DNA of 64,000 bases, taken from Sulfurimonas sp. (GTDB lineage: Bacteria; Campylobacterota; Campylobacteria; Campylobacterales; Sulfurimonadaceae). The stretch is taken from assembly GCA_028687935.1 (NCBI GenBank), contig JAQTZE010000005.1:124001-188000 (forward strand), read 5' to 3'. Below are positions 21,021 to 62,400 of the stretch, piece after piece. The position numbers and the translations under genes are program-made. The notes under the pieces were generated by a model. That model saw only the letters and a list, made by a program, of their open reading frames with translations. It made no database searches and had not been told where the DNA came from. Each line of letters begins with the position of its first letter. Position 1 is the first letter of the stretch.

Positions 21021-21565
21021 CAGACAAAAGCCTTTAATACTTCCACACAAAGACCCATCGCTGTGCTTTCATAGCCACGGACTTCTTTGATATAAGATTT
21101 GCAAAAGCCCTCGACCATGCATGCACCCGCCTTCCCTCGCCACTCGCCACTCTCTAAATAGCGTTCAAGATCATCCATATCAAAATCAGCGAAGATATAA
21201 TCTGTCTGCGAAATATCGATAATCTTTTTCTCTTTGGAGTGATAGATCATACAAGTGATTATTGAGGTGATATTGCCGCTTTGGGTCATGAGAATATTTC
21301 GAGCATCACTCTCGCATTTTGCTTTGCGAAGGATTTGACCTTGAGAAGTGACTACGGTATCAGCGACTAAAAGAGGAAAATCTTCATAACCAAACGCAGC
21401 AAGGTTGGCCTCGTATTTTCCAAGTGTCGCCTGATAGACAAAGTTTTTAGGAGAGCTTGCAATGATAGCGTCTTCATCAAAATCGACACTCTCCTGCACA
21501 AACGCAATCGCTGCGTTTTGTAAAAGCATGGATCGGGTTTGCGAAGAAGAGGCTAATCTAAGCAT
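21020..21565 (-). CDS. maf: Maf-family nucleotide pyrophosphatase
   Basis: 181 residues. The N-terminal LRLASSSQTR matches the family's LASxSPRR phosphate-binding motif, and PLLVADTVV near 66 carries the catalytic Asp. Maf proteins hydrolyse non-canonical or modified nucleotides and are linked to septum control. Its overlap with bioF and the membrane-protein gene places it inside the alaS operon; I recall alaS next to maf in Helicobacter pylori too. Confidence 0.88.
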   Translation of the reverse strand: MLRLASSSQTRSMLLQNAAIAFVQESVDFDEDAIIASSPKNFVYQATLGKYEANLAAFGYEDFPLLVADTVVTSQGQILRKAKCESDARNILMTQSGNITSIITCMIYHSKEKKIIDISQTDYIFADFDMDDLERYLESGEWRGKAGACMVEGFCKSYIKEVRGYESTAMGLCVEVLKAFV

Positions 21566-25516: not shown

Positions 25517-25953
25517 AACGCAAGCTCGTCTTGAATAACAATTTGGGGATATCTCTCTAAAAAGATATCCGCTGCAAGACCGTTACCTAGAGCAATTATC
25601 TCTTTTTTAGCGTTGAGCAGAGGTGTCGTTGCAAGCCCACAGCTTGGACTTTTTGACTTGAGTACTATCGCATCTGCGTTTGGATGCGCCGCGCAAAAAG
25701 AGAGTATCTCGTGGCGCAGAAGTTCGGTGACATCTTTCTTGCTCTCATCTGTGATAATATGCTTCTTTTGCCCTTGCATCACAACACTTATCCGCTCTCT
25801 TGGTGTGCCAAAGAGAGGCGCTTCGGGACAAAACGGGATAATCTCAAACGCAGCAAAAGCTTCTATGACTGCGTTTACCTCTTTGGTTTTGCCATCATAA
25901 CGACACACTTCACCGAGCAGACACGAGCTAATAATAACCTTTTTCTTAGCCAT
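25513..25953 (-). CDS. DUF523 family protein
   Basis: 146 residues of the DUF523 (YbbK-like) family: SSCLLGEVCRYDG near residue 9, FCPEAPLFGTPRERI near 41 and LKSKSPSCGL near 97. The conserved cysteines suggest a metal or Fe-S site. Related domains are linked to 2-thiouracil handling, but function is not settled. It starts immediately before the stop of the aldehyde dehydrogenase upstream (no gap), so the two are co-transcribed. Confidence 0.82.
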   Translation of the reverse strand: MAKKKVIISSCLLGEVCRYDGKTKEVNAVIEAFAAFEIIPFCPEAPLFGTPRERISVVMQGQKKHIITDESKKDVTELLRHEILSFCAAHPNADAIVLKSKSPSCGLATTPLLNAKKEIIALGNGLAADIFLERYPQIVIQDELAF

Positions 25954-27432: not shown

Positions 27433-28335
27433 TTAGCCGACTATATAAAGATATAAAATTCCTGTTGTTACAAATGAAGCCAAAATCCCATATCCGACGA
27501 TAGATGCACTGAGCCTTGGGGCAAGTCCTGCCATAGAAGCCAAAACTCCGGCGGTTATCATCGGTGCCATTCCCGCTTCGAGGATAGAGACCTGCGCGGC
27601 TAAACTCTCCAATCCAAAAATCCAGCAAAAGAGTATCGCCACAAAAGGTGCAAAAAGGAGCTTCACAAAAAGCGCCGCGCCAAAGGGTTTGAAATCATCT
27701 TTGGGAAGGCGAAACTGTAACTGCAGTCCCACAGCAACAAGGGCAAGCGGGACAATGGTCGCGGAGAGTGCTTCAAGTGTCGAGATAATAGCTGGATGAA
27801 ACGCAGTGCCTGTGAGCATAAACGCCACTAAAAGCGCGATAAATGGCGGAAAGGTAAAAAGTTTTGTGAGGATAAGTTTAAATTCTAGCTTGTGCTCGCT
27901 TGAATAATATGAAGCCACAAAAGTCCCATAAATCGCAAACGCAAGGAAGGTTCCAAGCTGATCATAGACAAGAACGTAGCCGATTGCTTCACTTCCTAAA
28001 TAGGCATTTATAATAGGAATCCCTAAAAACGAACTGTTGGTCAAAACAGCTACAAGCATCAAAGCACCCGTGATCTCTTTTGAAAAATGGAGCAAACGCG
28101 AGAGGAGCAAAACAAGCAGAGCTGAGAAAAACATCACTATCCAAGCGATAAACGCAGGTAAAAGCATCTCATAAGAAAAATCAATCTTTGGCACTTGGAG
28201 CAGAATAATCGCTGGAAACGCAACAGTAATAATAAATTGATTTAGAGTAGTGGCTGCGTTTTCTGGGAACAAACGCAGCTTTTGGATAAGGTAGCCAGCA
28301 GATAAAGCCACAAATATAAGTAAAAAATTTTCCAA
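27433..28335 (-). CDS. AEC-family (auxin efflux carrier) transporter
   Basis: 300-residue membrane protein with about ten helices in two halves, typical of the PF03547 family; the N-terminal FLLIFVALSAGYLIQKLRLF and the central NSSFLGIPII are characteristic. Bacterial members move organic acids such as malate or malonate. Substrate unknown. Two inverted AAACGCAGC words sit inside the gene near 28253-28279. Confidence 0.82.
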   Translation of the reverse strand: MENFLLIFVALSAGYLIQKLRLFPENAATTLNQFIITVAFPAIILLQVPKIDFSYEMLLPAFIAWIVMFFSALLVLLLSRLLHFSKEITGALMLVAVLTNSSFLGIPIINAYLGSEAIGYVLVYDQLGTFLAFAIYGTFVASYYSSEHKLEFKLILTKLFTFPPFIALLVAFMLTGTAFHPAIISTLEALSATIVPLALVAVGLQLQFRLPKDDFKPFGAALFVKLLFAPFVAILFCWIFGLESLAAQVSILEAGMAPMITAGVLASMAGLAPRLSASIVGYGILASFVTTGILYLYIVG

Positions 28336-28841: not shown

Positions 28842-31397
28842 TTGAAATCAATTTTAGCCGCCTTACTGCTCGCCTCGCTCTTACAAATCTTCCTTTGGGT
28901 AAACAATGTCGATAAAATTGTTTCGCCTCCAGATGCTGAAAATCTCATCAAATCACTCTCCTACGCGCCCTATAAAAGTGCAGACAAGACGCTTCTCAGT
29001 GATAAAGAGATTTTGCGTGACTTAACACTCATCAGCAAGTTTACAAAAAAGATCCGCGTCTACTCTTCTGAAGATGCTGCAGCCGTATTGCCTCAGGCAA
29101 GAAAGCTCAACATGCAGGTTCACTACGGTATGTGGCTCTCAGGTGACCCTGAAAACAACAGACAAGAGATAGAACTGGCTAAAAAACTTATTCCAGAGTA
29201 CTATCCAACTATCTCTTCTGTTATCGTCGGGAATGAGGTCTTGCTCCGCGGGGACCTTGAAGTCGAAGAGCTTATAGAGATCATCCGTGACTTTAAAAAA
29301 GTGCTTGCCGAACAAGAAAAAAAGACACCGCTTCGATACCATCAGCCGCGTGTTACAACTGCTGAGATTTGGAATCTTTGGATAGAAAATCCGGAGCTTG
29401 CCCAAGAAGTTGACTTTATCAATATCCACGTACTTCCATACTGGGAAAAGATAAAAGCGCAAGAGTTTGTGCCATATTTTAAAAATATCTATCACAATGT
29501 AAGCGCTGCGTTTCCAAATAAACGTGTCACAATCGGAGAGTTCGGCTGGCCAAGTCAAGGGTATAATAACCAAGGCTCTGTTGCGAGTGCAGAAAATCAA
29601 GCCACAGTTGTACGAAGATTTTTGATTCTTGCAAAAGAAGAGAGTTTTCAATACAACCTTCTTGAAGCATTTGATCAGCCTTGGAAAGGTATCCATGAGG
29701 GAAATGTCGGACAATATTGGGGTATTTTTGATGCAGAACGCAATCAAAAATTTGAGTTCCAAGGTTCAGTTCTTATAGAGCCATACTGGTTTATGCAGAT
29801 GAGTGCGGCTGCGTTTATCGGTGCACTTTTGACATTCTTCGGACTGCGTAACCAGCGTATGAACTTTATGCATGCTATCACCTATGGTCTAGCGGCGCAA
29901 GGTATCTCTTTTGGTATCGTTATGTCGGCTATCTATCCATTTATACACTATATGAACTTCGGTATGTGGGTGATGTGGGGAATGGGTACGCTGCTTATGA
30001 TACCGCTGACTGTTATCACCCTTGCAAAAGCAAATGAGCTTTTCAAATGTACACTTGGTAGACGTCCAAAAAGACTGATCCCACTTGACCTACAGTCCAA
30101 TCATGTCCCAATGGTAAGTATCCACGTTCCAGCCTATAAAGAGCAGCCGCACGTACTTGAAGAGACGCTTGTAGCGCTCTCAAACCTTAACTACACAAAC
30201 TTTGAAGTACTTGTAATTATCAATAATACTCCAGAAGATTACTACAAAGCACCTATCAAAAAGCTCTGTAAAGAACTTGGAGAGCGTTTTGTCTATCTAG
30301 ATATTGAGTGTACAGGATTTAAAGCAGGTGCTCTCAATAAAGCCCTCTCCTCTGCGAGCAGTGACACGGAGATACTCGCTGTTATCGACGCCGATTATGT
30401 TATCTCTCCAAACTGGCTTGTCGATCTTGTGCCTATTTTTGATGATGAAAAAGTAGCGATGGTTCAAGCACCTCAAGATCACCGTGATGGCAATGAATCT
30501 CTTCTCAAAACAGCAATGAATGCGGAATACGCAGGCTTTTTCGATATCGGAATGGTTGAGCGTAATGAAGAAAACGCAATCGTAGCACACGGAACGATGC
30601 TTATGATCCGTAAGTCTGCGTTTGATGAAGTCGGTCAGTGGAATACTGATACCATCGTTGAAGACAGTGAACTTGGTCTTAGACTCTTTGAGGCTGGTTA
30701 TTCTGCACACTATACAAACAGAAGATATGGTCATGGATTACTTCCAGATACTATTGAGGCCTTTAAAACGCAGCGTCACCGCTGGGCTTATGGAGCGATA
30801 CAAATCCTTAAAAAACACTGGCCACACTTTATGCCATCGTCCAAAACGCTTACAAAAGCACAAAAACACCACTTTATTACAGGATGGTTTTTCTGGCTCT
30901 CTGACGCGCTTGGCCCTGTTACTGCAGTACTCAATATTGTCTGGGTTCCAGTTATCATCTTTGTTGGGGTTACGATACCGACCATCGCACTCACCGTGCC
31001 GATTTTGACCGCGTTCTTAGTCAATGTCATTCATGCTTTTGTTCTCTATCGTACACGTGTGAAGGTGAGTTTTTACCACTCTCTCTTGGGCGCAATTGCC
31101 GCAATGAGTCTGCAACTTACTATTTTTAAAGCTGTGTATGATGGATTTGTCAAAGATAGACTTCCTTTTAAACGTACAGAAAAAGGTGGTAACACGAAAA
31201 AAATATCAACGGATAATTCAAATCAGGAAGCTATTTTGGCTTTCTTATTGATAGGTTCGTTTACAGCGCTTATTATGACTAATGAACAGGAGATTGTGGA
31301 GGTGTATGTATTTGCTTCGACACTTCTGGTTCAAAGTGTTCCTTATGTCTCAGCTATGATTTTAAAGGCTATTGAGAAAGTTTCTCTCAAAGCCTAA
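28842..31397 (+). CDS. GH17-GT2 fusion, beta-glucan synthase NdvB-like
   Basis: 851 residues. After an N-terminal membrane segment lies a glycoside hydrolase 17-like domain (about 35-300) with catalytic Glu candidates in VGNEVLLRG near 129 and IGEFGWPS near 230. Membrane helices follow (about 315-395), then a family 2 glycosyltransferase domain (about 425-650) with AVIDADYVIS, VEDSELGLRLF and the QRHRW motif, and further helices. The same order is known in the Pseudomonas aeruginosa NdvB glucan synthase, so a cyclic or linear beta-1,3-glucan product is the best guess. TTG start after AGGA. Stand-alone gene ending in a hairpin. Confidence 0.82.
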   Translation: MKSILAALLLASLLQIFLWVNNVDKIVSPPDAENLIKSLSYAPYKSADKTLLSDKEILRDLTLISKFTKKIRVYSSEDAAAVLPQARKLNMQVHYGMWLSGDPENNRQEIELAKKLIPEYYPTISSVIVGNEVLLRGDLEVEELIEIIRDFKKVLAEQEKKTPLRYHQPRVTTAEIWNLWIENPELAQEVDFINIHVLPYWEKIKAQEFVPYFKNIYHNVSAAFPNKRVTIGEFGWPSQGYNNQGSVASAENQATVVRRFLILAKEESFQYNLLEAFDQPWKGIHEGNVGQYWGIFDAERNQKFEFQGSVLIEPYWFMQMSAAAFIGALLTFFGLRNQRMNFMHAITYGLAAQGISFGIVMSAIYPFIHYMNFGMWVMWGMGTLLMIPLTVITLAKANELFKCTLGRRPKRLIPLDLQSNHVPMVSIHVPAYKEQPHVLEETLVALSNLNYTNFEVLVIINNTPEDYYKAPIKKLCKELGERFVYLDIECTGFKAGALNKALSSASSDTEILAVIDADYVISPNWLVDLVPIFDDEKVAMVQAPQDHRDGNESLLKTAMNAEYAGFFDIGMVERNEENAIVAHGTMLMIRKSAFDEVGQWNTDTIVEDSELGLRLFEAGYSAHYTNRRYGHGLLPDTIEAFKTQRHRWAYGAIQILKKHWPHFMPSSKTLTKAQKHHFITGWFFWLSDALGPVTAVLNIVWVPVIIFVGVTIPTIALTVPILTAFLVNVIHAFVLYRTRVKVSFYHSLLGAIAAMSLQLTIFKAVYDGFVKDRLPFKRTEKGGNTKKISTDNSNQEAILAFLLIGSFTALIMTNEQEIVEVYVFASTLLVQSVPYVSAMILKAIEKVSLKA

Positions 31398-31407
31398 ACG
31401 CAATTCA

Positions 31408-31435
31408 TAAACGCAGCAACTCTTCGCTGCGTTTA
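31408..31435. terminator. Convergent terminator built from two inverted AAACGCAG words
   Basis: Perfect 10-base inverted repeat TAAACGCAGC (31408-31417) and GCTGCGTTTA (31426-31435), loop AACTCTTC, between two convergent genes. The stem is simply the genome's over-represented word in inverted pair, as seen with uptake sequences in Neisseria and Pasteurellaceae. Confidence 0.7.
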
Positions 31436-31443
31436 CAAACTCT

Positions 31444-33513
31444 CTAGCAGTTTATCACTTCTACTTTTATCGACTTAAACGCAGCCGTCATAATAACTTC
31501 ATCACTTTTATCTCCAAAGAGATTGTTTATCTTCGACTCAGCATGATGGAAAGTTGCAAAAAGTGTCTTTGGCTGTACCTTATCAGTAATTTTGATAGTA
31601 AGCGGATTCGTCTGCCCAAACTCACTTTTGAGGATAACTTTTTCACTCGTAAACTCATGGGCATCACCTTCGTGAACCAACAAGATATCTTCATCATAGC
31701 GTTTATTGAGATTGTGTGAACGTTTCGTCTGTGCCGCATTGTTATAATGTGCTATCGTTCTTCCAGTGGTAAGGTGATAGCCCGTGAGTGTTTTACCCAA
31801 TATCTCTTCGACCATACCGCGCAGTTTGTACTGGTGGTAGTGGAACTCACCCAAACCATCATCCGTTCTAAAGTCAAGCTGGTGGAGTATCGGAGTATCT
31901 TCTGTATGCACAGGCCACTGAAGACCGCGTTTTCTATGTCGTTCAAGTCTGACATAGGAAGCTCCACTAAAGCGTCTATAGGCAACTTCACGTACTTCAT
32001 CCCATACTTCATTTGAGTTTTTGTAGTTGTAGCTTCCACCCATTTTGTTGTCAAGCATCTGCAACACTTCCCAGTCATCTGGTAAGTCAGATTTGACAAG
32101 TGGCTGTGAAAGGTGCAGACGGCGCATTGCGTTTACATAAACACCCGTCTTCTCATAGGCAGACTTCACGCCGACGACGATATCTGCTTTGTTGGCAACA
32201 TCGGTCATAAAAAGTTCTTGGACAAAAAGAAGTTCAAGTTTTTCAAAAGCTCTATCTATTTTGTTAAGATTTGGATGGATATGTGTAATATCTTCACCGA
32301 TGTTCAACACCGCTTTTATCTCATCTCGAAGCATCGCATCAACTAATTGTGGCGTCATCAAGCCAACTTCTTTTGGCTCTTGATAGTCAGGATCATAATA
32401 TGGAAGCATTCCCATATCACATGTTCCTTGGACATTATTTTGTCCACGAAGCGGCATAAGCCCAGCTCCGCTTTTTCCGATATTTCCCGTCATAAGTGCA
32501 AGATGCACCATCGCCATAACTGCGTACGAGCCGTCAATATGTTCTGTGATACCAAGACCCCAGAAGATCATAGATTTTTTCAGAGCATACTCACGCGCGA
32601 TTTTACGTACCATTTTTGAGAGATATTCATATCCTTCTATCTTATTGAAGTAGTCTGGATTTGCATATTCATCTGCAAGTATTTTCGCCTTAAAGTCCAA
32701 AAAGCCTTTAGTTCTATCCGCCATAAAACTATCATCATATAACTCTTCATCGATGATGACATACGCGAGCATATTGAGAATCAGCAGATTCGCTTCATGT
32801 GGCATGATAGCCTTGTACTTTGCAAATCTGTGAAGTTTTATTTCACGCACATCAAAAACGGCAAGGTTATCATGCTCACGTGCCACATCGATAATACGGT
32901 TGGAAATAATTGGATGCGCTTCTGTCGTGTTGGAGCCAATGACGATCATAAACTCACAGTTGTAGATATCATTATAAGGATTCGTCGCAGCGCCCTCACC
33001 TATCGTTCTACGCATTCCTGAGAGGGATGGAGAGTGGCAAACGCGAGCACAGTTATCAACGTGAGGAGAGCCAAGAGTATGGCGTGTAAACTTTTGAAAG
33101 AGATAAGAACTCTCACAAGAAGTACGTGCACCACCGATTGAACAGACACTTTTGTCACCATATTTTGCTTGAATCTCTTTAAGCTTCATCGTAGCAGCAG
33201 TAGTCGCGCCATCGAGATTTGTCTCATACCAAGTGGCATCAAGATCTACAAGATTTGAAGCAAGCGCTTCTTTGATTGAAGGATTTTTTTCTAAAAAGCT
33301 TTTACGGATACGAGGAATACGCAGACGATCCTCAGCATCGACAAAATCAAAACCGTATTTACCCTTGATACAAAGCTTTCCCTGAGAGACGACTCCATCA
33401 GGATGCGCAAAGATACTCATAATCTTATTCTCTTTGACGTCAACGTTTGCTGCAATGTCACAGCCCGTACCACAGTAGGTACAAACGCTGTCTATTACCT
33501 CTATATTTTCCAT
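31444..33513 (-). CDS. Molybdopterin oxidoreductase, formate dehydrogenase alpha-like (Cys form)
   Basis: 689 residues of the FdhF/NarB/NapA superfamily. An N-terminal [4Fe-4S] motif CTYCGTGC near residue 11 and Cys of KLCIKG near 48 are followed by the Mo/W-bis-MGD domains; the active-site ligand in ARVCHSPSLSGM near 157 is Cys where E. coli FdhF has selenocysteine. The last 120 residues form the MopB C-terminal beta-barrel (TGRTIAHYNN). No electron-transfer or membrane subunits flank it, and no Tat signal is present, so it is a cytoplasmic orphan. Formate is the likely but unproven substrate. Confidence 0.82.
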   Translation of the reverse strand: MENIEVIDSVCTYCGTGCDIAANVDVKENKIMSIFAHPDGVVSQGKLCIKGKYGFDFVDAEDRLRIPRIRKSFLEKNPSIKEALASNLVDLDATWYETNLDGATTAATMKLKEIQAKYGDKSVCSIGGARTSCESSYLFQKFTRHTLGSPHVDNCARVCHSPSLSGMRRTIGEGAATNPYNDIYNCEFMIVIGSNTTEAHPIISNRIIDVAREHDNLAVFDVREIKLHRFAKYKAIMPHEANLLILNMLAYVIIDEELYDDSFMADRTKGFLDFKAKILADEYANPDYFNKIEGYEYLSKMVRKIAREYALKKSMIFWGLGITEHIDGSYAVMAMVHLALMTGNIGKSGAGLMPLRGQNNVQGTCDMGMLPYYDPDYQEPKEVGLMTPQLVDAMLRDEIKAVLNIGEDITHIHPNLNKIDRAFEKLELLFVQELFMTDVANKADIVVGVKSAYEKTGVYVNAMRRLHLSQPLVKSDLPDDWEVLQMLDNKMGGSYNYKNSNEVWDEVREVAYRRFSGASYVRLERHRKRGLQWPVHTEDTPILHQLDFRTDDGLGEFHYHQYKLRGMVEEILGKTLTGYHLTTGRTIAHYNNAAQTKRSHNLNKRYDEDILLVHEGDAHEFTSEKVILKSEFGQTNPLTIKITDKVQPKTLFATFHHAESKINNLFGDKSDEVIMTAAFKSIKVEVINC

Positions 33514-39265: not shown

Positions 39266-40081
39266 TTAAAGATTTAAAAGACGGTTATAGCAGGCTTTTG
39301 TATTTTCACCCGTGATTTTACTGATGAGTTTCGCCTGTACTTTTTTTGGAAGGTCAAGCTCTAAAATATCGTTTTGCGTCACAGCACTGCTGTTTTGCGC
39401 GGTAGCCGCTTCGATGACTACGACCCATTCGCCTTTGTAGTTTCCATCAAGCGCATTAAAGATCTCTTTTGCACTGCCATGTAAAAAACGTTGATATTTC
39501 TTTGTCAGCTCTTTTGCGAGAAAGATTCTACGAGTACTTTCAACTTTATCGATTTCTAAAAGTAGTTTGTCGAGTCTGTGAGGAGATTCGTACAAAACCG
39601 TTGTATAGCCGTTGTACATCGCCTCTTGCAATCCCGCCGCTCGAGAATCACCTTTGTGATCCAAAAAGCCTAAAAAGAGCATTTTTGTCTGCACAAAACC
39701 ACTTGCTACAAACGCAGTCAACACTGCGTTTGCTCCAGGGAGGATGTCATACTTTATTTGATTATCGATGCAGTAACGCACCAAAGTCTGCCCAGGATCA
39801 CTGATTCCAGGCATTCCTGCGTCGCTTACATAAACCACATTACGCTCAAAAAATGAAGCTTCGAGTTTTGCAACAAAGGCATCTTCATTGTGTGAATGTA
39901 AGGAGATAAATTCTTGATTTTCTATAAACTGCGTTTGGTAGCGTTCTTTGAGAATGTGGATGAGTTTTTTTGTGATGCGAGTGTCTTCGCAGAGGAGTAC
40001 CTCAGCGCCACTGAGAAGCTCAATGGCTCTGAGTGACATGTCACCGATATTTCCAATCGGAGTTGGAACTAAAGATAACAA
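39266..40081 (-). CDS. rsmI: 16S rRNA (cytidine 1402-2'-O)-methyltransferase
   Basis: 271 residues of the tetrapyrrole-methylase fold with PTPIGNIGDMSLRA at residues 6-19, CEDTR near 35, SDAGMPGISDPG near 89 and LYESPHRL near 160, the standard RsmI set. It lies immediately downstream of rpmE. It contains a perfect inverted pair of the AAACGCAG word near 39711-39733. Confidence 0.93.
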   Translation of the reverse strand: MLSLVPTPIGNIGDMSLRAIELLSGAEVLLCEDTRITKKLIHILKERYQTQFIENQEFISLHSHNEDAFVAKLEASFFERNVVYVSDAGMPGISDPGQTLVRYCIDNQIKYDILPGANAVLTAFVASGFVQTKMLFLGFLDHKGDSRAAGLQEAMYNGYTTVLYESPHRLDKLLLEIDKVESTRRIFLAKELTKKYQRFLHGSAKEIFNALDGNYKGEWVVVIEAATAQNSSAVTQNDILELDLPKKVQAKLISKITGENTKACYNRLLNL

Positions 40082-45343: not shown

Positions 45344-45967
45344 TTATTTAGCGAGGATTTCTGCTTTGAGTTTTGTAAACTCTGCATCTGTCAAAATACC
45401 TTGCGTTTTAAGTGCTGCTGCGTTTTGAAGCTCTTCTGTTTTTGATTTTGTGTAGACTACTTGTGGTGCTACAACTGCACTTGGCTCTTCTTTTGGCATA
45501 ATTAGTTCAGAGATGATATTCTCTTCTTTGACATATTCACCTGCAAGTGTTGTATTGCTGAGTTCTTCATAAGCAACATTTGAGTTGACTCTTTTGATCT
45601 CAAATTTTCCAAAATCATCTGCAAAACTGTGTATTTGAAGATAGTATGTTTTACCTGCTGCAAGGTCCATCTCGATTTTTTGTTCTTCTAAGTCAGCTCT
45701 ATAAGCAGAGATAGTGAGCATACCTGGTTTAAGGTTGAGCACTTGATACTCTCCTACTTTCATACTACCCTCTGTTTTTTTACCATTGACACCTACTTTA
45801 TATGTAGAAACTCTTGTTGTCATATTGATACCAGAATCAGGTACTACATAGACATATACGAGTGCTGCGTTTTCAAGTGGAGCCTGTTTTTCAAACGCAA
45901 CTTTGCTACATGCCATAAAAAGCATACCCAGAAGGATTGTGCTAAAGATTAAAGCGATTTTTTTCAT
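45344..45967 (-). CDS. Lipoprotein with DUF2846-like and SHOCT domains
   Basis: 207 residues. The signal ends in lipobox LGMLFMAC with the lipidated Cys at 20. Residues 30-140 resemble DUF2846 (alternating beta strands, YYLQIHSF...FGKFEIKRV), and the last 30 residues are a SHOCT motif (LKTQGILTDAEFTKLKAEIL), which often mediates oligomerisation. Likely anchored in the outer or inner membrane facing the periplasm. Monocistronic. Confidence 0.75.
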   Translation of the reverse strand: MKKIALIFSTILLGMLFMACSKVAFEKQAPLENAALVYVYVVPDSGINMTTRVSTYKVGVNGKKTEGSMKVGEYQVLNLKPGMLTISAYRADLEEQKIEMDLAAGKTYYLQIHSFADDFGKFEIKRVNSNVAYEELSNTTLAGEYVKEENIISELIMPKEEPSAVVAPQVVYTKSKTEELQNAAALKTQGILTDAEFTKLKAEILAK

Positions 45968-51331: not shown

Positions 51332-52198
51332 TTATAAATTTAAGTTTTCTTTTATAAATTTTCCAATTTTGTCACTCATGTGCTCTATTTTGTAATACTT
51401 TTCACTCTCTATTAGATTTATTATGCTAGTAATTTGACCTAGGTCAAGAGTTTCTACGATAGGGACGCCAAAACGCTCAAATAGTTCGTTAAAATTTCTC
51501 GTATAGTCTTCTCTTTGGATATAAATTGGTCGTCCACCTGAAGCTAAAGAGTCTAAAACTGCTTGAGGTGATGCAGTGATTAATATGTCTGTTTTTTTGA
51601 TCATCGCTTCATATTCTTCAAATTCATGGTGTTTTTTGAATTTTTTCTTAAGCGAATCTTCGTAATCTAAAAAGTAGTAAAATCCGAGTTGCAACTCTGC
51701 GTTTAGATCTTCTATAAACGCAAGATTTTTTTCCAAATCTTTCTCATAATCATCATCACCAAAGAAATAAGCTATCTTTATCTCTTTTGGAACTTTTTCA
51801 AAAAATTCTTCACCAACTGCGTAGCCATTGCATATGCCTTCGCCATGAAGGTAGGGAGAGATAAGCAACTCATTTGGATCTTTGACATCATTTGCATCAT
51901 CGCTCACACGGATAAAAGTAGAAAAATATTGGCGCATATCAGCAAGCATGATAGGGTTCGCTTCTTCTGAGTCAAAGATAAGCTGATCTCCATGATGGGC
52001 TATTTGCGGGATATTGCGGACAACATCTATCCCCACACTTTTTGAGATACCGAAATCTTTTGCAACTTGTGCGATACGAAAATCAGAACAAAGCAGTGTG
52101 ATATCTACATCGTCCAAAGCACGGATGATAGCTGCAGCTCTTCTAAATCTATCAAGTCCAATACGGTGACCTGTGTGTACATAATAAAAAGTCTTCAT
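51332..52198 (-). CDS. Glycosyltransferase-like (GT-B fold) protein
   Basis: 288 residues. The start FYYVHTGHRIGLDRFRRAAA and the C-terminal DILITASPQAVLDSLASGGR resemble the two halves of MurG/PseG-like GT-B proteins, with a Gly-rich turn near the end for a nucleotide sugar. No catalytic assignment is possible. It contains an inverted pair of the AAACGCA word (51698-51722), so it belongs to the core; the accessory DNA begins just upstream of its start. Precedes petABC on the same strand. Confidence 0.55.
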   Translation of the reverse strand: MKTFYYVHTGHRIGLDRFRRAAAIIRALDDVDITLLCSDFRIAQVAKDFGISKSVGIDVVRNIPQIAHHGDQLIFDSEEANPIMLADMRQYFSTFIRVSDDANDVKDPNELLISPYLHGEGICNGYAVGEEFFEKVPKEIKIAYFFGDDDYEKDLEKNLAFIEDLNAELQLGFYYFLDYEDSLKKKFKKHHEFEEYEAMIKKTDILITASPQAVLDSLASGGRPIYIQREDYTRNFNELFERFGVPIVETLDLGQITSIINLIESEKYYKIEHMSDKIGKFIKENLNL

Positions 52199-54311: not shown

Positions 54312-56175
54312 ACTAGATATCGGAACGCAAATTATATACAAGGATCAAAAGTATCAAATTAAAGGATACCCTTCATTAGACGAAGTGTTAATCAAGCTTA
54401 CTGAAAAACCGTACAATGAAAAAGTCCTGAAGGTCAGTACATTGATAAAAGAACCGAAGAATGCGAAGGAACAATCAAACGAACTGGTCGATATAGACGA
54501 TAAAGAGTTTGAAAAAGCTTTGGAAAAATATAAGATTATAGAACCTTTGTTGTCTTTAGAAAAGAGAACTGCCAAAGATGTAGAGGATATCGCTAAAAAA
54601 CATCAAAAAGGTATCGCTACGATATACAGGTGGTTAACTACCTACGAGACTTTTAACACTATCAGCTCACTTAGTCCGGCATATAAAAATTCCGGAGCCA
54701 AAGGTAAAAGCCGTTTAGATAAGTCCGTAGAAGCAATTATAGAATCTGTCATAGATGAATTCTACCTAACCAAACAGCAATATCCTCTATCAATTATATA
54801 TATGAAAATAGTTGAAAAATGTAATAACCTAGATTTGGAAGTTCCAAACATAAACACTATTAGAAATAGGATTAACACTCTTAATCCAAAAATAGTAGCC
54901 AAGAATCGTAAGGGCTTAAGCGTTAGAGATACCAGAGGTATGCCCGGTAAATACCCTGATGTAAAAATGCCGCTCGATGTTATACAAATCGACCACACTA
55001 AAGTAGATGTTATGTTAGTTGATGAAGAAACAAGAAAAAATATAGGAAGAGCAAATATTACCGTTGCTATAGACGTATATAGTCGTATGGTTTATGGATT
55101 TTATATATCCCTTGAAGCTCCTAGCTATTTTAGTGTAGGGCAAGCTCTTCTCAATGCCATACTTCCGAAAGATGATTTACTGAAAATGTACAATGTAACC
55201 GGCGAATGGCCGGTATTTGGTCTACCTCGTGCAGTCAGTATGGATAATGCAAAAGAGTTCAGGAGCAAAAGTTTACAAATGTTTTGTAGCGAATATAGAA
55301 TCAAAGACATCTATCGTCCGGTTGCTCGTAGTCATTTTGGCGGCATAATAGAGCGCCTAGTGGGCATTTCTATGAAAAAAACACATCTAATACCAGGCAC
55401 TACATTTTCAAGTGTGGAGAAAAAAGGAACTTATAATTCAGCCGAATATGCAGTTATGACCATTAGTGAACTTGAGCAATGGTATACGGATTTTATTATC
55501 AACATTTATCATAAAAGCGTCCACAGTACTATTCATATGACTCCTGAAGAAAAATTATATCAAGGGATGCTCGGCGTAGGAGACGGTACTATACCTTTTC
55601 TACCGACGGTCCCATCCAATACGCTTAAACTGAGGATGGCTCTTTTGCCTGCATCTGAACGTACGGTTCAAAAGAACGGTATTACTATTGATTACATCAC
55701 ATACTTTTCTGAAACTCTTCGAAAATGGATAATCCCTGCCCAATATAAAAAGCTCAATCAAAACTTGATATCGAATACAGTACTATGTAGGCGCGATCCA
55801 AGAGATATCAGCAAGATATATGTCTATGATCCTGATATAGATAACTACATAGAAGTTCCTTACGCCGACATTAAAAGACCTGCGATGAACATCAAAGAAC
55901 TTAGACAATCTATCGCAGAAGCAAAAAAAGAAGTTACCGGCAGAGAGCTAGAACAGCATGATATTTTTCAAGCACATAATAGACTATTTGAATATACTGA
56001 GAAAGCTAAAAGAGAACAAAAAACCGTACGCAGACAGATAAGTTCCAAAAAACATATGCAAAAAACCATGGACTATGAATCTAAAGTCTTAAAAAGTGAT
56101 GTGACTCTCAATAAAAAACATAAAGAGACATTTGAAGATGATGAGGACGGATATGAATACTATCCGGTAGGCTAA
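54298..56175 (+). CDS. tnsB: TnsB-type DDE transposase
   Basis: 625 residues: N-terminal HTH domains that bind transposon ends (DIAKKHQKGIATIYRWLTTY near 95), the RNase-H-like integrase core (about 215-400) with the DDE acids in VIQIDHTKVD, AVSMDNAKEF and GGIIERLVG, and a Mu-transposase C-terminal beta-barrel. All three acidic residues are present, so it should be active. Coupled to tnsA and followed by tnsC after one base. Confidence 0.92.
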   Translation: MAVIKLDIGTQIIYKDQKYQIKGYPSLDEVLIKLTEKPYNEKVLKVSTLIKEPKNAKEQSNELVDIDDKEFEKALEKYKIIEPLLSLEKRTAKDVEDIAKKHQKGIATIYRWLTTYETFNTISSLSPAYKNSGAKGKSRLDKSVEAIIESVIDEFYLTKQQYPLSIIYMKIVEKCNNLDLEVPNINTIRNRINTLNPKIVAKNRKGLSVRDTRGMPGKYPDVKMPLDVIQIDHTKVDVMLVDEETRKNIGRANITVAIDVYSRMVYGFYISLEAPSYFSVGQALLNAILPKDDLLKMYNVTGEWPVFGLPRAVSMDNAKEFRSKSLQMFCSEYRIKDIYRPVARSHFGGIIERLVGISMKKTHLIPGTTFSSVEKKGTYNSAEYAVMTISELEQWYTDFIINIYHKSVHSTIHMTPEEKLYQGMLGVGDGTIPFLPTVPSNTLKLRMALLPASERTVQKNGITIDYITYFSETLRKWIIPAQYKKLNQNLISNTVLCRRDPRDISKIYVYDPDIDNYIEVPYADIKRPAMNIKELRQSIAEAKKEVTGRELEQHDIFQAHNRLFEYTEKAKREQKTVRRQISSKKHMQKTMDYESKVLKSDVTLNKKHKETFEDDEDGYEYYPVG

Positions 56176-56176
56176 A

Positions 56177-57049
56177 ATGGAAGATAGAAGATTAACGACA
56201 GAAGCCAAAGAATACTTGGAAAAAAGTGCTCAAGAAAGAATAGCGTATTGCAATCAAGATAAATGGATAGGTTACGGTGCTGCAATGACCTTGCTGGAAC
56301 TGCTAGAAGATAAGTTCAACGAACCTACTCAACTTCGTCATGAGGGTTTACTGATTTACAGTGAATACAACAACGGCAAAACTGCAATTTTAAAAAAGTT
56401 TTACGATATGCACAAACTTCAGTTTGACCATATAAACGGCGAAGATGAGATGATACATGAAATTCCAATCATTTATCTTCAAGCTCCAACTTCACCTGAT
56501 GAAGGAAGACTATATAGTCGAATATTATCCGAATTGTGTGTCCCTCATAAACGCAATGAAAAAGTAATAGAAAAGGCAAGGCTTGTAAAACACTACCTTG
56601 ATAAACTGAACACCAAAATGATTTTGTTGGATGAAATACATAGTGCGTTAACGGGCAATCTCAACAAACAAAGGGCTTTTGTAGATGTGTTGAAACAACT
56701 AAGTAACCAACTCTCACTTAATATTATTTTGGCCGGAACTTTTGAAGCACACTCTGCACTCTCCATTAGAGGCGAGACAAACTCTAGATTCCCGTCTATA
56801 GAATTACCTATGTGGAGTAACGGTAAAAAATTTAGATCTTTTGTAGCTACGTACGAGACATGTTTACCGCTTAAAGAAGCTTCCAAGCTTGCAGACAACG
56901 AAGAAATAATAAATAAGCTTTTCTATGAATCAGAGGGTTTGATTGGCAAAACGGTGCGTTTGATAAAAAAAGCTGCAACCAAAGCAATAAAGTCCGGGAG
57001 GGAAAAAATCACATTAGAGGATATAGAGTACTTACCTACTCTAAAATGA
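56177..57049 (+). CDS. tnsC: TnsC/TniB-type AAA+ ATPase
   Basis: 290 residues with Walker A SEYNNGKTAILKK near 60 and Walker B KMILLDEIHSA near 152. These ATPases link the target selector to TnsAB and enforce target immunity. At 290 residues it is shorter than Tn7 TnsC (about 555) and closer in size to TniB and CAST TnsC. One base separates it from tniQ. Confidence 0.9.
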   Translation: MEDRRLTTEAKEYLEKSAQERIAYCNQDKWIGYGAAMTLLELLEDKFNEPTQLRHEGLLIYSEYNNGKTAILKKFYDMHKLQFDHINGEDEMIHEIPIIYLQAPTSPDEGRLYSRILSELCVPHKRNEKVIEKARLVKHYLDKLNTKMILLDEIHSALTGNLNKQRAFVDVLKQLSNQLSLNIILAGTFEAHSALSIRGETNSRFPSIELPMWSNGKKFRSFVATYETCLPLKEASKLADNEEIINKLFYESEGLIGKTVRLIKKAATKAIKSGREKITLEDIEYLPTLK

Positions 57050-57050
57050 T

Positions 57051-58226
57051 ATGTCTACCAAGCCTAGACAGACACGAAACACTGACTGGGTAGAAGATTA
57101 TAACTTCCTGATTACACCAAAACCACAAAAAGACGAACTGCTCAGTTCATGGCTAACGCGCGTTGCATTTGCTCACGGTATGACATTAAATAACTTTTTT
57201 GGCTATTTTGTACGACATGAAGGTCATGCTCTGACTCGAACAGATATAGATTTTCAATATAACCCATACCTTTTGGACGCTCTCTCCAAAAAAAGTAAAA
57301 TTGATATCAAAACTATTCAAAACCTTTCACTACGAAGTGAAGAAGGCTATCTTTTTGCTTGTAATGAGTGCTTATATCCTCCGGCACAAATCAGAAAGCT
57401 AGTAGATAGAAGAACTCATTTTGGATTGATGTATTGTCCAAAGTGTTTAGAAGAGGACGAACACCCATATTTTAGACAAGAGTGGCGTTATCTCTTTTCT
57501 AATGCATGTATCAAACATGGAATATATCTAAAAGATAGATGTGGAATATGTTTTGAGAGAATTAGGCTTAGAAAAATGCCTATAGATAATAAAATAATTT
57601 TTTGCCACAAATGTAAAAGAGACTTAAGACTAACAAGACCTATAAAAGTTTTAGAAGAACACTCTGAAGGATTAGAAGCTATATCATGGTTTCAAAATGG
57701 ACTAAAAAATGGTTACTTTGTCATTGACAATACAAAAGTTAGCTCTTTAGTGATATTTCAAGCATTCACACATCTTCGATATCTTATAAATGGACAAAAA
57801 AATCTTAAACTTGATAGTTTTTCAATGCTTAACAGCTATAAAGGATTATGCAAAAAACTACAGCATTATGATTCAAAAAAATGTGGACCAGTTTACAAAG
57901 ACTTCTTCTTAACTGCGATTGTGTATCATTTATTTCAAAACTATCCGAATAATCTTCAAAAATTTGCAGATGAAAATAATCTTACTTATAGGGATTTTAT
58001 ACATGGTTTTATAGATATACCGTTTTGGTACAAAAGTACAATTGACGGTATTATTCCAATGCAAAATACAGTTGGTAGAGATATTAGCAAGAGTGAAGTG
58101 ATTGGTGTCATAAATTATTTGAAACACTCAGGTATTAAAGTAACTCAAAAGAGTGTAGCGGAAATAGTTGGGTGTCATTTTAGTATTAATAAAACATTTA
58201 TCAGGATTTACAAACAAATAACGTAA
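57051..58226 (+). CDS. tniQ: TniQ/TnsD-family target selector
   Basis: 391 residues. The TniQ domain (about 15-160, KDELLSSWLTRVAFAHG) is followed by zinc-finger cysteines CNEC, CPKC, C..C (CGICFERIRL) and CHKC around 103-195, and a C-terminal helical part with an HTH-like segment (TQKSVAEIVGCHFSINKTF). The length lies between short TniQ and Tn7 TnsD (about 508), so it could read a DNA site itself or serve an RNA-guided complex; no cas genes are visible. The stop lies within repeats of a putative operator. Confidence 0.88.
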   Translation: MSTKPRQTRNTDWVEDYNFLITPKPQKDELLSSWLTRVAFAHGMTLNNFFGYFVRHEGHALTRTDIDFQYNPYLLDALSKKSKIDIKTIQNLSLRSEEGYLFACNECLYPPAQIRKLVDRRTHFGLMYCPKCLEEDEHPYFRQEWRYLFSNACIKHGIYLKDRCGICFERIRLRKMPIDNKIIFCHKCKRDLRLTRPIKVLEEHSEGLEAISWFQNGLKNGYFVIDNTKVSSLVIFQAFTHLRYLINGQKNLKLDSFSMLNSYKGLCKKLQHYDSKKCGPVYKDFFLTAIVYHLFQNYPNNLQKFADENNLTYRDFIHGFIDIPFWYKSTIDGIIPMQNTVGRDISKSEVIGVINYLKHSGIKVTQKSVAEIVGCHFSINKTFIRIYKQIT

Positions 58227-58300
58227 TATTTACGTAAATAACGTATATATTACTATTTATCATCATAATTATCGTTATTTAAGTAAAATAAATGTATTAT
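58216..58300. promoter_or_regulatory. Putative operator-promoter of the cargo cassette
   Basis: AAATAACG occurs directly at 58216-58223 and 58236-58243 (20 bases, two helical turns) and inverted at 58273-58280; a perfect dyad ACGTAA-TAT-TTACGT covers 58221-58235. A -10-like TATTAT at 58295-58300 lies six bases before ATG 58307, with the inverted copy over the -35 position. The small HTH protein encoded next is the obvious candidate regulator. Confidence 0.5.
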
Positions 58301-58306
58301 CCCGTT

Positions 58307-58540
58307 ATGGATTTTAAAAGCTTTGAGACGCTATTGAGCGATGTTGGATTAAATATTCAAGTTTTTTCAGAAAAAACAAATACTCCTGTACGCACTGTAC
58401 AAAATTGGTTTACACAAAGAAAAGCTAAAGTTACAAATGAACCGAAATGGGTTATCCCATATATTGAACTATATAAAGAAAATAAAAAACAAAAACACAT
58501 CATTGAATACTTAGAGGAAAAGCAAAATGAAAAAAATTAA
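58307..58540 (+). CDS. Small HTH DNA-binding protein
   Basis: 77 residues with a helix-turn-helix-like core (IQVFSEKTNTPVRTVQNWF) and a lysine-rich C-terminus. Probably the repressor of this cassette. ATG 58307 is preferred to an in-frame ATG at 58292, which falls in the promoter; neither has a ribosome-binding site and the mRNA may be leaderless. Its last codons overlap the next gene by 14 bases. Family not recognised precisely. Confidence 0.65.
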   Translation: MDFKSFETLLSDVGLNIQVFSEKTNTPVRTVQNWFTQRKAKVTNEPKWVIPYIELYKENKKQKHIIEYLEEKQNEKN

Positions 58541-59402
58541 AACATCTTTCTCTGGTCATGATAAGTTTGATTGCAAAATTGATTGGATTGTTAAAGGATT
58601 AGAGGCTTTTAATAATGACAAGAAAATATTATTATTATCAAACATAGAAAAAGGAATTGAGACTTTGGGTTTAGGAATTAATATGATTAAGTCATTAAAT
58701 CATTGGCTCAAGGTATTTGGTCTTATAAATGATAATGGCTTGACAGAGCTTGGACAAATGATTTTAGAGAAAGATCCATATTTAGAGAATACAGACATAC
58801 TTTGGATTCTACATTGGAATCTTGTTAAAAACAAAGAAAACACAACTCTATACTATATGTTTTTCAACCAAATATATCTTTATAGATTCACAAAAGAAGA
58901 TATATTTAACAATGTGAGTTTATGGTTAGAACAAAATGAAATAAAATTGTCTCCAAGCACATTAAAAGCGGACATAGATGTATTTTTAAGAATGTACAAC
59001 AACACTTCAAATAAAGATATCAGTATGAACTTATTATCGGACTTAAATATTTTAACTCAATTTAATGATAAATATATTCTAAACATTAATTCAACAGTTA
59101 AAATTTCTAATGATGTATTTATATATATACTCAACGACTACATACATACATTCAAAAAAGCCAATATAGAGTCTATATCAATTGATGATATTCAAAGAGG
59201 TGAAGTTAGTATTCAAAAAAGTTTATGTATGAGCGAGAATACTCTGTTTTCCAAGATAAATAATATTTCAAATATAACTAATGGAAGCATGTCTTACTCT
59301 GAAGCATCCGGAATAAGACAAATTTATATTAACAATACATTAAATAATCATGAATTATTAAGCAATATTTTAAACAAGGAGGTTGATAATGTTTTGCTAT
59401 AA
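58527..59402 (+). CDS. DUF4007-like protein
   Basis: 291 residues. The start KTSFSGHDKFDCKIDWIVKG matches the FSGHETF...W..K opening of DUF4007 (PF13182) proteins, which from memory occur beside PAPS-reductase-like and ATPase genes in DNA-phosphorothioation-type loci. The remainder is helical with a winged-helix look; no catalytic motif is evident, so a DNA-binding or scaffold role is plausible. GAGG precedes the ATG. Overlaps the HTH gene by 14 bases and the ATPase gene by 14. Confidence 0.72.
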   Translation: MKKIKTSFSGHDKFDCKIDWIVKGLEAFNNDKKILLLSNIEKGIETLGLGINMIKSLNHWLKVFGLINDNGLTELGQMILEKDPYLENTDILWILHWNLVKNKENTTLYYMFFNQIYLYRFTKEDIFNNVSLWLEQNEIKLSPSTLKADIDVFLRMYNNTSNKDISMNLLSDLNILTQFNDKYILNINSTVKISNDVFIYILNDYIHTFKKANIESISIDDIQRGEVSIQKSLCMSENTLFSKINNISNITNGSMSYSEASGIRQIYINNTLNNHELLSNILNKEVDNVLL

Positions 59403-62400
59403 GGATTATATTTCATTAAATAGTAAATTCAGTAAATCTACCAATATTGTATATGATGCTGAAAACTGCAAAGATTACATCATAACAACATCTTCAAAGA
59501 ATGTTCTAAAAATACTTTTTAAACAAGACTATCATAATTCTATTTCACTCATTGGCCCATTTGGGTGTGGTAAATCGTCACTATTGCTATATATCAATAC
59601 ATTACTTTCAAACAATGAATACAGTAAAAGCTGTTACGAACAATTAAACATTTCTGAGCCAAACATATATAATCAGCTTACTGCATTCACTAATAATAAG
59701 AAGTTTTTGAAAATCAAAATTGTTGGAGAACATACATCATTTAAATTACAACTAAAGAACTCGCTTCTGAAGATTAAAGAGCTTAAAACAACCAATGAAT
59801 ATCTCAATGAAAATGCAGAATATCAATTGAGCAAAACACTTGAATACATATCTAATGATATTATAAAAAGCAACTATACAGATGTTTTATTTTCAATAGA
59901 TGAGTTTGGTAAATTTATTGAATATAGCTTTGAAAACACTAATTCAAATGATATCTTTGATTTGCAAACATTATCAGAATATATTAACAAGTCTAACAAC
60001 TACAAGTTAATAGTATCTTTACATAAAGCTTTTAATGAATATACTCAAGGCAGTAATTCTCAAATATCCTATTCTGATTGGGATAAAATTCAAGGAAGAT
60101 TTGAGAATATTGTTTTTAAAGATGATTATTATGAAATGCTCAATATATTCAAAGAAACTATTTCATTAGACAATTCAACCCATATTCAAAAGTGCAGAAA
60201 CACTATTTCGGATATATGCACGGACAGCAGCTTTCAAGAAGATATCAATTCTTCTGAATTTAGAAGTCTTTTTGAAAAAATAATACCAATACATCCATAT
60301 ACTGCATTAGCTATAGCAGAAATATTTACAAAATACTTTCAAAACCAACGCTCTATCTATTCATTTATATTTTCTTCTGAGCCAAGTGCTTTTCAGGAAT
60401 TTATTTTTAAAAAACATGATAAGTATGAACTATATTCTTTAACAGAGCTATATGATTATATTGCATATTTATTGAAAGTTTATTCTATCTTGTTACCAGA
60501 CAGAGAGATATGGTACTTTTCCGAATACAGATTAAAAGATATAAGAGTTAAGAATCAAATTCAAATTGATATAATTAAAACTGTAGCCCTGATACATGCA
60601 TTCAAGCTAATTAATACCATTTCACCAAACAAAGAGCACATAGTATTATCTTTAATGGATAGATATTCAAAAAAAGAAATTTTAGATAACATCCTTTTAT
60701 TAGAAGAAAATAATATATTAATATTTCAAGAACAAAGTAAATCATTTTCCTTACTTGAAGATTCAAATATAGACATTAATAAAGAAATGAAAAAAATATT
60801 AGCACATGATGTTAATATTGATTATGAAATGAAACTCAATAGCTTTATAAGTGACAAATTTCTTGTTGCTAAAAGATATTTTGCAAAATTTGGAAGCAAA
60901 AGAGTTTTTGAGAAAAAGTATGTGTCCAAGAATACAAAAGTATTCACAGAAGCATATAAAATCTTTTTGGTGAATGAAATAGATATTACTAAGTATGCGA
61001 ATAATAATAGTAAGTCTATATTTATACCTCTCCGCAAAACTACAAAACTTTATGAATTGGTTGACAAGATTGAAGCACTTCATGTTATTAAAGATAACAA
61101 CAAAGAAAAGATGAGTATAGACACAAAAGATATCATTGATAATATGATATCTGATCATACACTTGCATTAGAGAATCTTCTACAAGAAAATTATCAAAAC
61201 GCTCTTATTTACTATCAGAACAAAAGCTTCAAATACTCTTCGCAAAACATACAAATTTTATTAAGTAATATAGCAGAAAACAATTATCCCGATACACCAA
61301 TGCTAAATAACTATACGCTAAATCATACTTTAGCAAATAGTGGGACAAATACATCAAATGTCAAAAAGCTATTTGAAAATCTTTTAAACAATTCAGATAA
61401 AGAAGAACTTGGAATTGACAAATATCCTGCGGAAAAGGCATTATATCTTTCTGTTATTAAGCCTGCTGGTATACACAAAATTATAAATGAGCAATATATA
61501 CTATGTAAACCAAGTGACTTAAATTTTCAACCTGTATGGAAATACATCAGTAAATATCTATCAAAAAGAAACAAAGTCACTGATTTAATCGTGGAACTTG
61601 AACAAGAACCTTTTGGTTTAGCTAGAACAAATGCTCTTTTTATGGTGTCTTTATTTATTATAATAAACAAAGACGCTATCAACCTGTTTAGAGATAAGAC
61701 ATATAAGTATGAGCTATCTTTAGATCTATTAATGAACATATGGAAAGCAACTGACAAGTATGAAATAAAGCTTATTAATCTAACATCATCGCAAAAATAT
61801 TTATTCAAAGCTTATTTGCAGATAACAACAGATATCACAGATTATACATATACAAAAGATAGTGTTGTGTCAATAATTAAAACACTCTATAGTAAATTTG
61901 ACATGCTGCCTAAATATGCAAAAAATACACAAAAAATATCTTCTGAAGCCATTAAACTCAGAAGATCGTTAAGCTCTATGAAGGAACCAACTGAAGCTTT
62001 TTTTGAAATGTTTCCTACTGCTCTTGGCTACGATAATATTGATTCGATTAATATAGATGAATTTGTAACAAAATTCAAAATAGCATTTAATGAAATTGCT
62101 CTATCATACAAAAATGAAATAATCTCAATTGAAAAACAAATTGTCAAAGTATTTCATTTGAGTAATAGTTCATTTCCTTACAACAATGGGTTAACAAAAC
62201 TAGCAGACAAATTATCTAAAGTCGAATCCTTTGACAGTGACACAAAAGCATTTATACGATGTTTTACATATTCAAATTCTTTAATTGAATTAATAGATAA
62301 CCTATGTGTTATTGTAATTCGTAAAAAACTTAGTGAATGTTTTGATAGTGATGTTATAGTTTTTAAAGATGAACTTTTTATATACGCAGAAAAAATGTTA

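Follow-up and report, generated by a model that had tools for sequence, protein, structure and literature searches.

Uptake words have been studied best in the Neisseriaceae (DUS) and the Pasteurellaceae (USS), and in the Neisseriaceae one-off variants of the uptake word are abundant. The HIP1 word of cyanobacteria is palindromic and shows extreme genome-wide over-representation without flanking conservation. In Neisseria meningitidis, hairpins formed by the DUS include 94 located tail-to-tail and 3 that are intragenic, and direct pairs are rare (PMC1852404). Less conserved flanks have been described for both DUS and USS (PMC2397512). Campylobacter jejuni takes up only RA(m6)ATTY-methylated DNA, and its pilin-like gene cj0683, which precedes priA, is required for DNA uptake (PMC10046745). 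In the literature covered, with subscription papers mostly outside that coverage, we found no report of uptake words in Sulfurimonas, Epsilonproteobacteria or Campylobacterota and no uptake experiment in this group.

We examined an inverted word pair located between two convergent genes in a Sulfurimonas DNA stretch of 64,000 nucleotides (the window). The first-pass annotation of this DNA had read the pair as a convergent terminator built from an over-represented word, in the manner of Neisseria and Haemophilus uptake words. Our comparison indicates that this word, AAACGCA[G/A], is probably a lineage-specific DNA uptake word, of which a few +- pairs at gene ends would have been co-opted as 3'-end hairpins.

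Methods

The source genome (G000; 2.58 Mb in 42 contigs) has Sulfurimonas MAGs as its nearest named relatives. Words were counted in a 464 kb sample of its stretches and through genome-wide pattern counts, and the counts expected in the 464 kb were obtained from a background model trained with the words masked. Close pairs, defined as two AAACGCA words with a gap of 0-24, were tallied genome-wide.

Abundance and form of the word

The word occurs approximately 1.6 times per kb in the source genome. In the 464 kb sample AAACGCA was observed 865 times against 69.5 expected, AAACGCAG 411 times against 15 (27-fold) and AAACGCAA 347 times against 23. The over-representation noted in the first-pass annotation is far above chance, with GCTGCGTTTA found 8 times in the window against 0.24 expected and 312 times genome-wide against 1 for the reversed control. 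The word is short and asymmetric, and its density lies within the range of roughly at least one per kb, far above expectation, that characterizes uptake words. Its AAACGC core is exact: variants that differ at one of these six bases, summed over the 464 kb, show no enrichment (1429 observed vs 1427 expected), and enrichment drops only toward the 3' end of the word. The flanks are nearly uninformative (C after the word, G missing before it), and the preferred context is (C/T/A)AAACGCAGC; a mobile repeat as the source of the word was ruled out by this lack of conserved flanks. A tandem array whose 18-bp unit, AAACGCAGTTCCAAATGT, contains the word was observed at G000:C11:50597-50747.

Counts per 20 kb show no strand skew, and the word occupies both strands without polarity with respect to replication, as uptake words do. 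A polar word of the Chi or KOPS type was ruled out by this balance and by the lack of bias along the replichore. For 714 of 758 AAACGCAR words the whole word is intragenic (1.64 per kb of coding sequence), which is approximately the share expected from the coding fraction, and the word is not enriched between genes.

Depletion of words in recently acquired DNA, a further feature of uptake words, was found in a few regions only (L017 and L015). The nearly word-free stretch L017:1-13000 carries restriction/methylase-like, helicase and Fic-like genes, with Mob-like genes just past it (functions assigned by eye), and is likely an acquired island; L017:1-10000, part of this restriction/mobilisation island, whose gene content also includes replication-like genes, contains no words. 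There are also none in L015:1-5000, where GC is 0.28. The window itself holds one word in the 5 kb from 55001 to 60000 (G+C 0.318), which is possibly acquired DNA.

Conservation and dialects in related genomes

Aligned window words are intact in three word-bearing relatives at 59, 51 and 45%, against 29, 25 and 18% for random 8-mers, a conservation about twice that of the random set. In five word-free relatives none of 104 aligned window words is intact. Residue identity among word-poor relatives is 0.55 under words and 0.71 in the rest of the same genes. Words therefore sit on permissive residues, as is usual for uptake words, and this low conservation agrees with the report on DUS and USS (PMC2397512).

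Related lineages carry words of their own, in the manner of the lineage-specific dialects of known uptake words. Counts of GCTGCGTTTA reach 209-362 in 5 of 72 genus genomes (G000, G014, G016, G054 and G057), are intermediate in approximately eight, and fall close to zero across most of the genus and in the sampled members of other families. GGCATGTGGA, a word of 10 bp with flanks that are T-rich 5' and A-rich 3', was seen in L041, L096 and genomes G119-G124; five genomes hold 840-1302 copies and a sixth 55, against 0-12 in the others and 0-3 for reversed controls. CTCACGCAG, which shares ACGCAG with the window's word, occurs 267-397 times in four genomes (L056, L057, L072 and L105) and 3-12 times elsewhere. 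The near-palindromic TTACATGTA(A) is carried by G011, G032, G061, L064, L081, L082, L084 and L089, with 157-1847 strand-counts of TTACATGTA in eight genomes and 12-39 elsewhere, and AAACGC[G/C]A is over-represented in G009, L063 and L073. Dialect labels cluster on a one-protein tree, with several changes; many of its deep branches are poorly resolved. Strong local 7-10-mers in L048, L060 and L068 (GCGTGGGA, CTGAAGCACAA and TGATGCTAAG) may be local repeats or further words. With the 7-mers of these three left out as possible local repeats, the comparison leans slightly toward a rapidly diversifying uptake-word set in the Sulfurimonas group, comprising five or more dialects, including a near-palindromic one.

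Orientation and location of word pairs

The source genome contains 144 inverted close pairs of AAACGCA (74 +- and 70 -+) and 173 direct ones (93 and 80), eight of the latter stemming from one tandem array; at gaps of 0-10 the 464 kb sample holds 14 inverted and 12 direct pairs. An excess of inverted over direct pairs is rejected by these tallies, which give the very result that the first-pass annotation had named as refuting its reading. All pairs at gaps of 0-24 number 317, which is not far above the ~224 given by independent placement at this word density, with every orientation alike. Word pairs in this genome show general clustering without orientation preference, and most inverted pairs are by-products of word abundance.

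Location is a different matter for the +- class. On the gene calls made in this analysis, and with small counts, 43 of 50 located +- pairs and 29 of 31 -+ pairs lie inside genes. The 7 +- pairs that are not intragenic are all at gene 3' ends (7/50; null 3.4%, P 0.0014), including 5 at convergent junctions (5/50; null 0.36%, P 1e-6), compared with 2 of 31 -+ and 1 of 51 direct pairs at gene ends; a +- pair is present at 3 of 42 convergent junctions. The prediction that other inverted pairs would lie at gene 3' ends was thus borne out for this minority, five of them convergent, but not for the intragenic bulk of both orientations. The TAA stop codon contained in TAAACGCA by itself favours the +- geometry at gene ends. 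An inverted excess located at gene ends is typical of uptake words without strictly defining them, and the source genome has only the gene-end excess of +- pairs.

The full gene-end hallmark that had been assigned to the window's genome is shown by the GGCATGTGGA type of genome. In the two sampled (G121 and G124) the density of this word outside genes is fourfold that inside, and of the 15 close inverted pairs 13 are found at gene 3' ends and one in other noncoding DNA; direct pairs number 7, of which 5 are intragenic. The gene-end excess of inverted pairs has a P of about 1e-8 per genome.

The hairpin at the convergent junction

The features of the window are collected in Table 1. The sequence and position of the central pair had been given correctly: the arms form a perfect 10-bp stem with an 8-nt loop (TAAACGCAGC-AACTCTTC-GCTGCGTTTA) between convergent genes, and four words fall within ~90 bp. 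The other four inverted pairs of the first-pass list are likewise present as described.

Table 1. Words, word pairs and flanking genes in the window
Feature	Position	Strand	Remarks
Inverted pair TAAACGCAGC / GCTGCGTTTA	31408..31435	.	between convergent genes
Word AAACGCAA	31396..31403	+	direct partner of word at 31409
Word AAACGCAG	31409..31416	+	left arm of pair
Word AAACGCAG (CTGCGTTT on +)	31427..31434	-	right arm of pair
Fourth word	31477..31484	+	inside 3' end of molybdopterin oxidoreductase gene
Glycosyltransferase family 2 gene	28842..31397	+	851 aa; N-terminal GH17-like domain; ends into hairpin
Molybdopterin oxidoreductase gene (formate dehydrogenase-like alpha subunit)	31444..33513	-	689 aa; convergent; stop at 31444
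Inverted +- pair	21500..21518	.	inside gene
Inverted +- pair	25846..25876	.	inside gene; absent from first-pass list
Inverted -+ pair	28253..28279	.	9/9; 5' part of gene 27433-28335
Inverted +- pair	39710..39733	.	inside gene; arms fold as 9 pairs (39710-39731)
Inverted -+ pair	45866..45899	.	inside gene; absent from first-pass list
Inverted -+ pair	51698..51722	.	inside gene

The TAA stop of the upstream gene is formed by the first two bases of the word at 31396 and the base preceding it, and the word at 31477 is conserved in L029, L030 and L031. The predicted fold of the hairpin alone has an energy of -14.2 kcal/mol; in context this is -15.4 kcal/mol (z -4.6) on the + strand and -25 (z -3.9) on the - strand. 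A GC-rich hairpin at a gene 3' end, as found in rho-independent terminators, is present at this site. Directly 3' of the stem lie CAAACTCTCT on the + strand and TGAATTGCGT on the - strand, so there is no U-tract past the UUUA of the stem itself, and the hairpin is not among the calls of a terminator scan.

The word pair is kept in L029 and L031, two of the three close relatives, and the third, L030 (13990-14150), forms its hairpin there from a different sequence, GCTCCCATGC-TCT-GCGTGGGAGC. Since all three have a hairpin here, with another sequence in L030, a hairpin seems to be maintained at this site, the word pair being one means of forming it. Transcription termination at 31408-31435 is plausible on this arrangement. 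The proposed role of inverted pairs as a terminator hallmark is partly supported: it has in its favour the gene-end excess of +- pairs, the persistence of the site hairpin in relatives and the gene-end pairs of G121 and G124, but the inverted excess and the U-tract are lacking.

Competence genes

Of 74 genomes, 69 encode ComEC, among them the source genome, which also has a T2SS-like operon with secretin, ATPase and pseudopilins and nine prepilin-like genes, eight of them exceeding the family cut-off. Two pilin genes lie directly upstream of priA in most relatives; as this is the position of Cj0683 in C. jejuni, we count them toward the competence apparatus. In the first of these (L269-L297) the N-terminus is nearly invariant and the C-terminal part highly variable among relatives. 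By eye, this variable pilin does not match dialect, with G000, G126 and G014 sharing a type and G127 and G054 differing. The pilins scanned gave no Pfam match to ComP-type or other named uptake-word receptor families.

Discussion

We infer that natural transformation in this Sulfurimonas lineage favours the import of word-bearing DNA, through a putative receptor for the word. Recombination of the imported DNA would spread and maintain the word across the genome, and other lineages of the group would use other words as dialects. Given the density of the word, inverted pairs would arise at about the direct-pair rate and be about as frequent. Most would be intragenic and without a separate role; a minority of +- pairs at gene 3' ends, 31408-31435 included, would be kept as 3'-end hairpins, helped by the stop codon that TAAACGCA carries, and may terminate transcription weakly in both directions or stabilise mRNA ends. 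Against the uptake reading stand the lack of a one-off excess and of intergenic enrichment, the lack of a receptor family match, a pilin that does not track dialect and, for the hairpin, the missing U-tract.

The main competing explanation is that uptake depends on methylation of the motif, as in C. jejuni: a lineage-specific methyltransferase would modify the word, the mark rather than the bare sequence would license uptake, and dialects would reflect methyltransferase turnover. We consider this unlikely, although a member of the same phylum is known to import only RA(m6)ATTY-methylated DNA (PMC10046745), all the words contain adenine, one is near-palindromic, and an exact core without one-off excess resembles enzyme recognition. 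No methyltransferase was linked to the word in this analysis, AAACGCAR lacks symmetry and tolerates variation at its final base, and 1.6 words per kb far exceeds the density that marking requires. The near-palindromic form of TTACATGTA, a point against the uptake reading, would suit a methylation word or a HIP1-like one just as well, the latter being a word that repair, replication or chromosome organisation maintains and that is unconnected to uptake. Such a function for AAACGCA[G/A] appears quite improbable: the mostly coding location, even spread, unconserved flanks and lack of excess one-offs would suit it, but rapid word replacement between sister lineages and the absence of words from the island are not readily explained, and strand symmetry excludes polar Chi or KOPS-type words.

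The tallies also bear on whether the inverted pair is selected mainly as a rho-independent terminator, with the word spreading by making terminators. The position of the pair, the conservation of the hairpin and the +- excess at convergent ends would agree with such a process, which is nevertheless largely refuted and highly improbable, as 714 of 758 words lie wholly in coding sequence, inverted pairs do not outnumber direct ones, the U-tract is missing and a +- pair is found at only 3 of 42 convergent junctions. That codon or dipeptide usage generates the word is hardly credible. Reading-frame preferences are indeed strong, yet the word is found in all six frames and between genes, it sits on poorly conserved residues (0.55 vs 0.71 identity), and word-free relatives have the same proteins without it (0/104); these last two results refute a usage artefact.

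If the uptake-word explanation is true, sequence-specific DNA uptake extends to Campylobacterota, through a T2SS-like/pilin system and not the ComP route of Neisseria. Dialects within one environmental genus-level group would allow the origin and replacement of uptake words to be compared directly between closely related genomes, and would set barriers to genetic exchange among sulfur oxidisers that are abundant in the sea and in groundwater. AAACGCAG and GGCATGTGGA would provide contrasting cases of the extent to which inverted pairs are co-opted at gene ends.

The analogy to Neisseria and Haemophilus is well supported for the word itself, through its density, strand balance, dialects, permissive residues and island depletion. 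Like the Neisseriaceae DUS, it is a dense, short, asymmetric and strand-balanced word with thousands of copies per genome, lineage-specific dialects and inverted pairs partly at gene ends. It differs from the DUS in sequence and phylum, and its part in uptake is putative; it is not enriched between genes, its inverted pairs are not above direct ones, there is no ComP family match, and one-off variants, abundant in the Neisseriaceae, are not in excess at its core positions. HIP1 of cyanobacteria is comparable in its extreme genome-wide over-representation without flanking conservation, but is palindromic, whereas the main Sulfurimonas word is asymmetric and the dialects change between close lineages. 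C. jejuni belongs to the same phylum and shares T2SS-like uptake machinery and a pilin gene before priA (Cj0683), but reads a methylated short palindrome (RAATTY), whereas the Sulfurimonas word is longer and mostly asymmetric. The words are unrelated in sequence to the Pasteurellaceae USS, and uptake here is putative; like the USS they lie mostly in coding sequence on permissive residues, and the GGCATGTGGA dialect, like the extended USS, has A/T-rich flanks.
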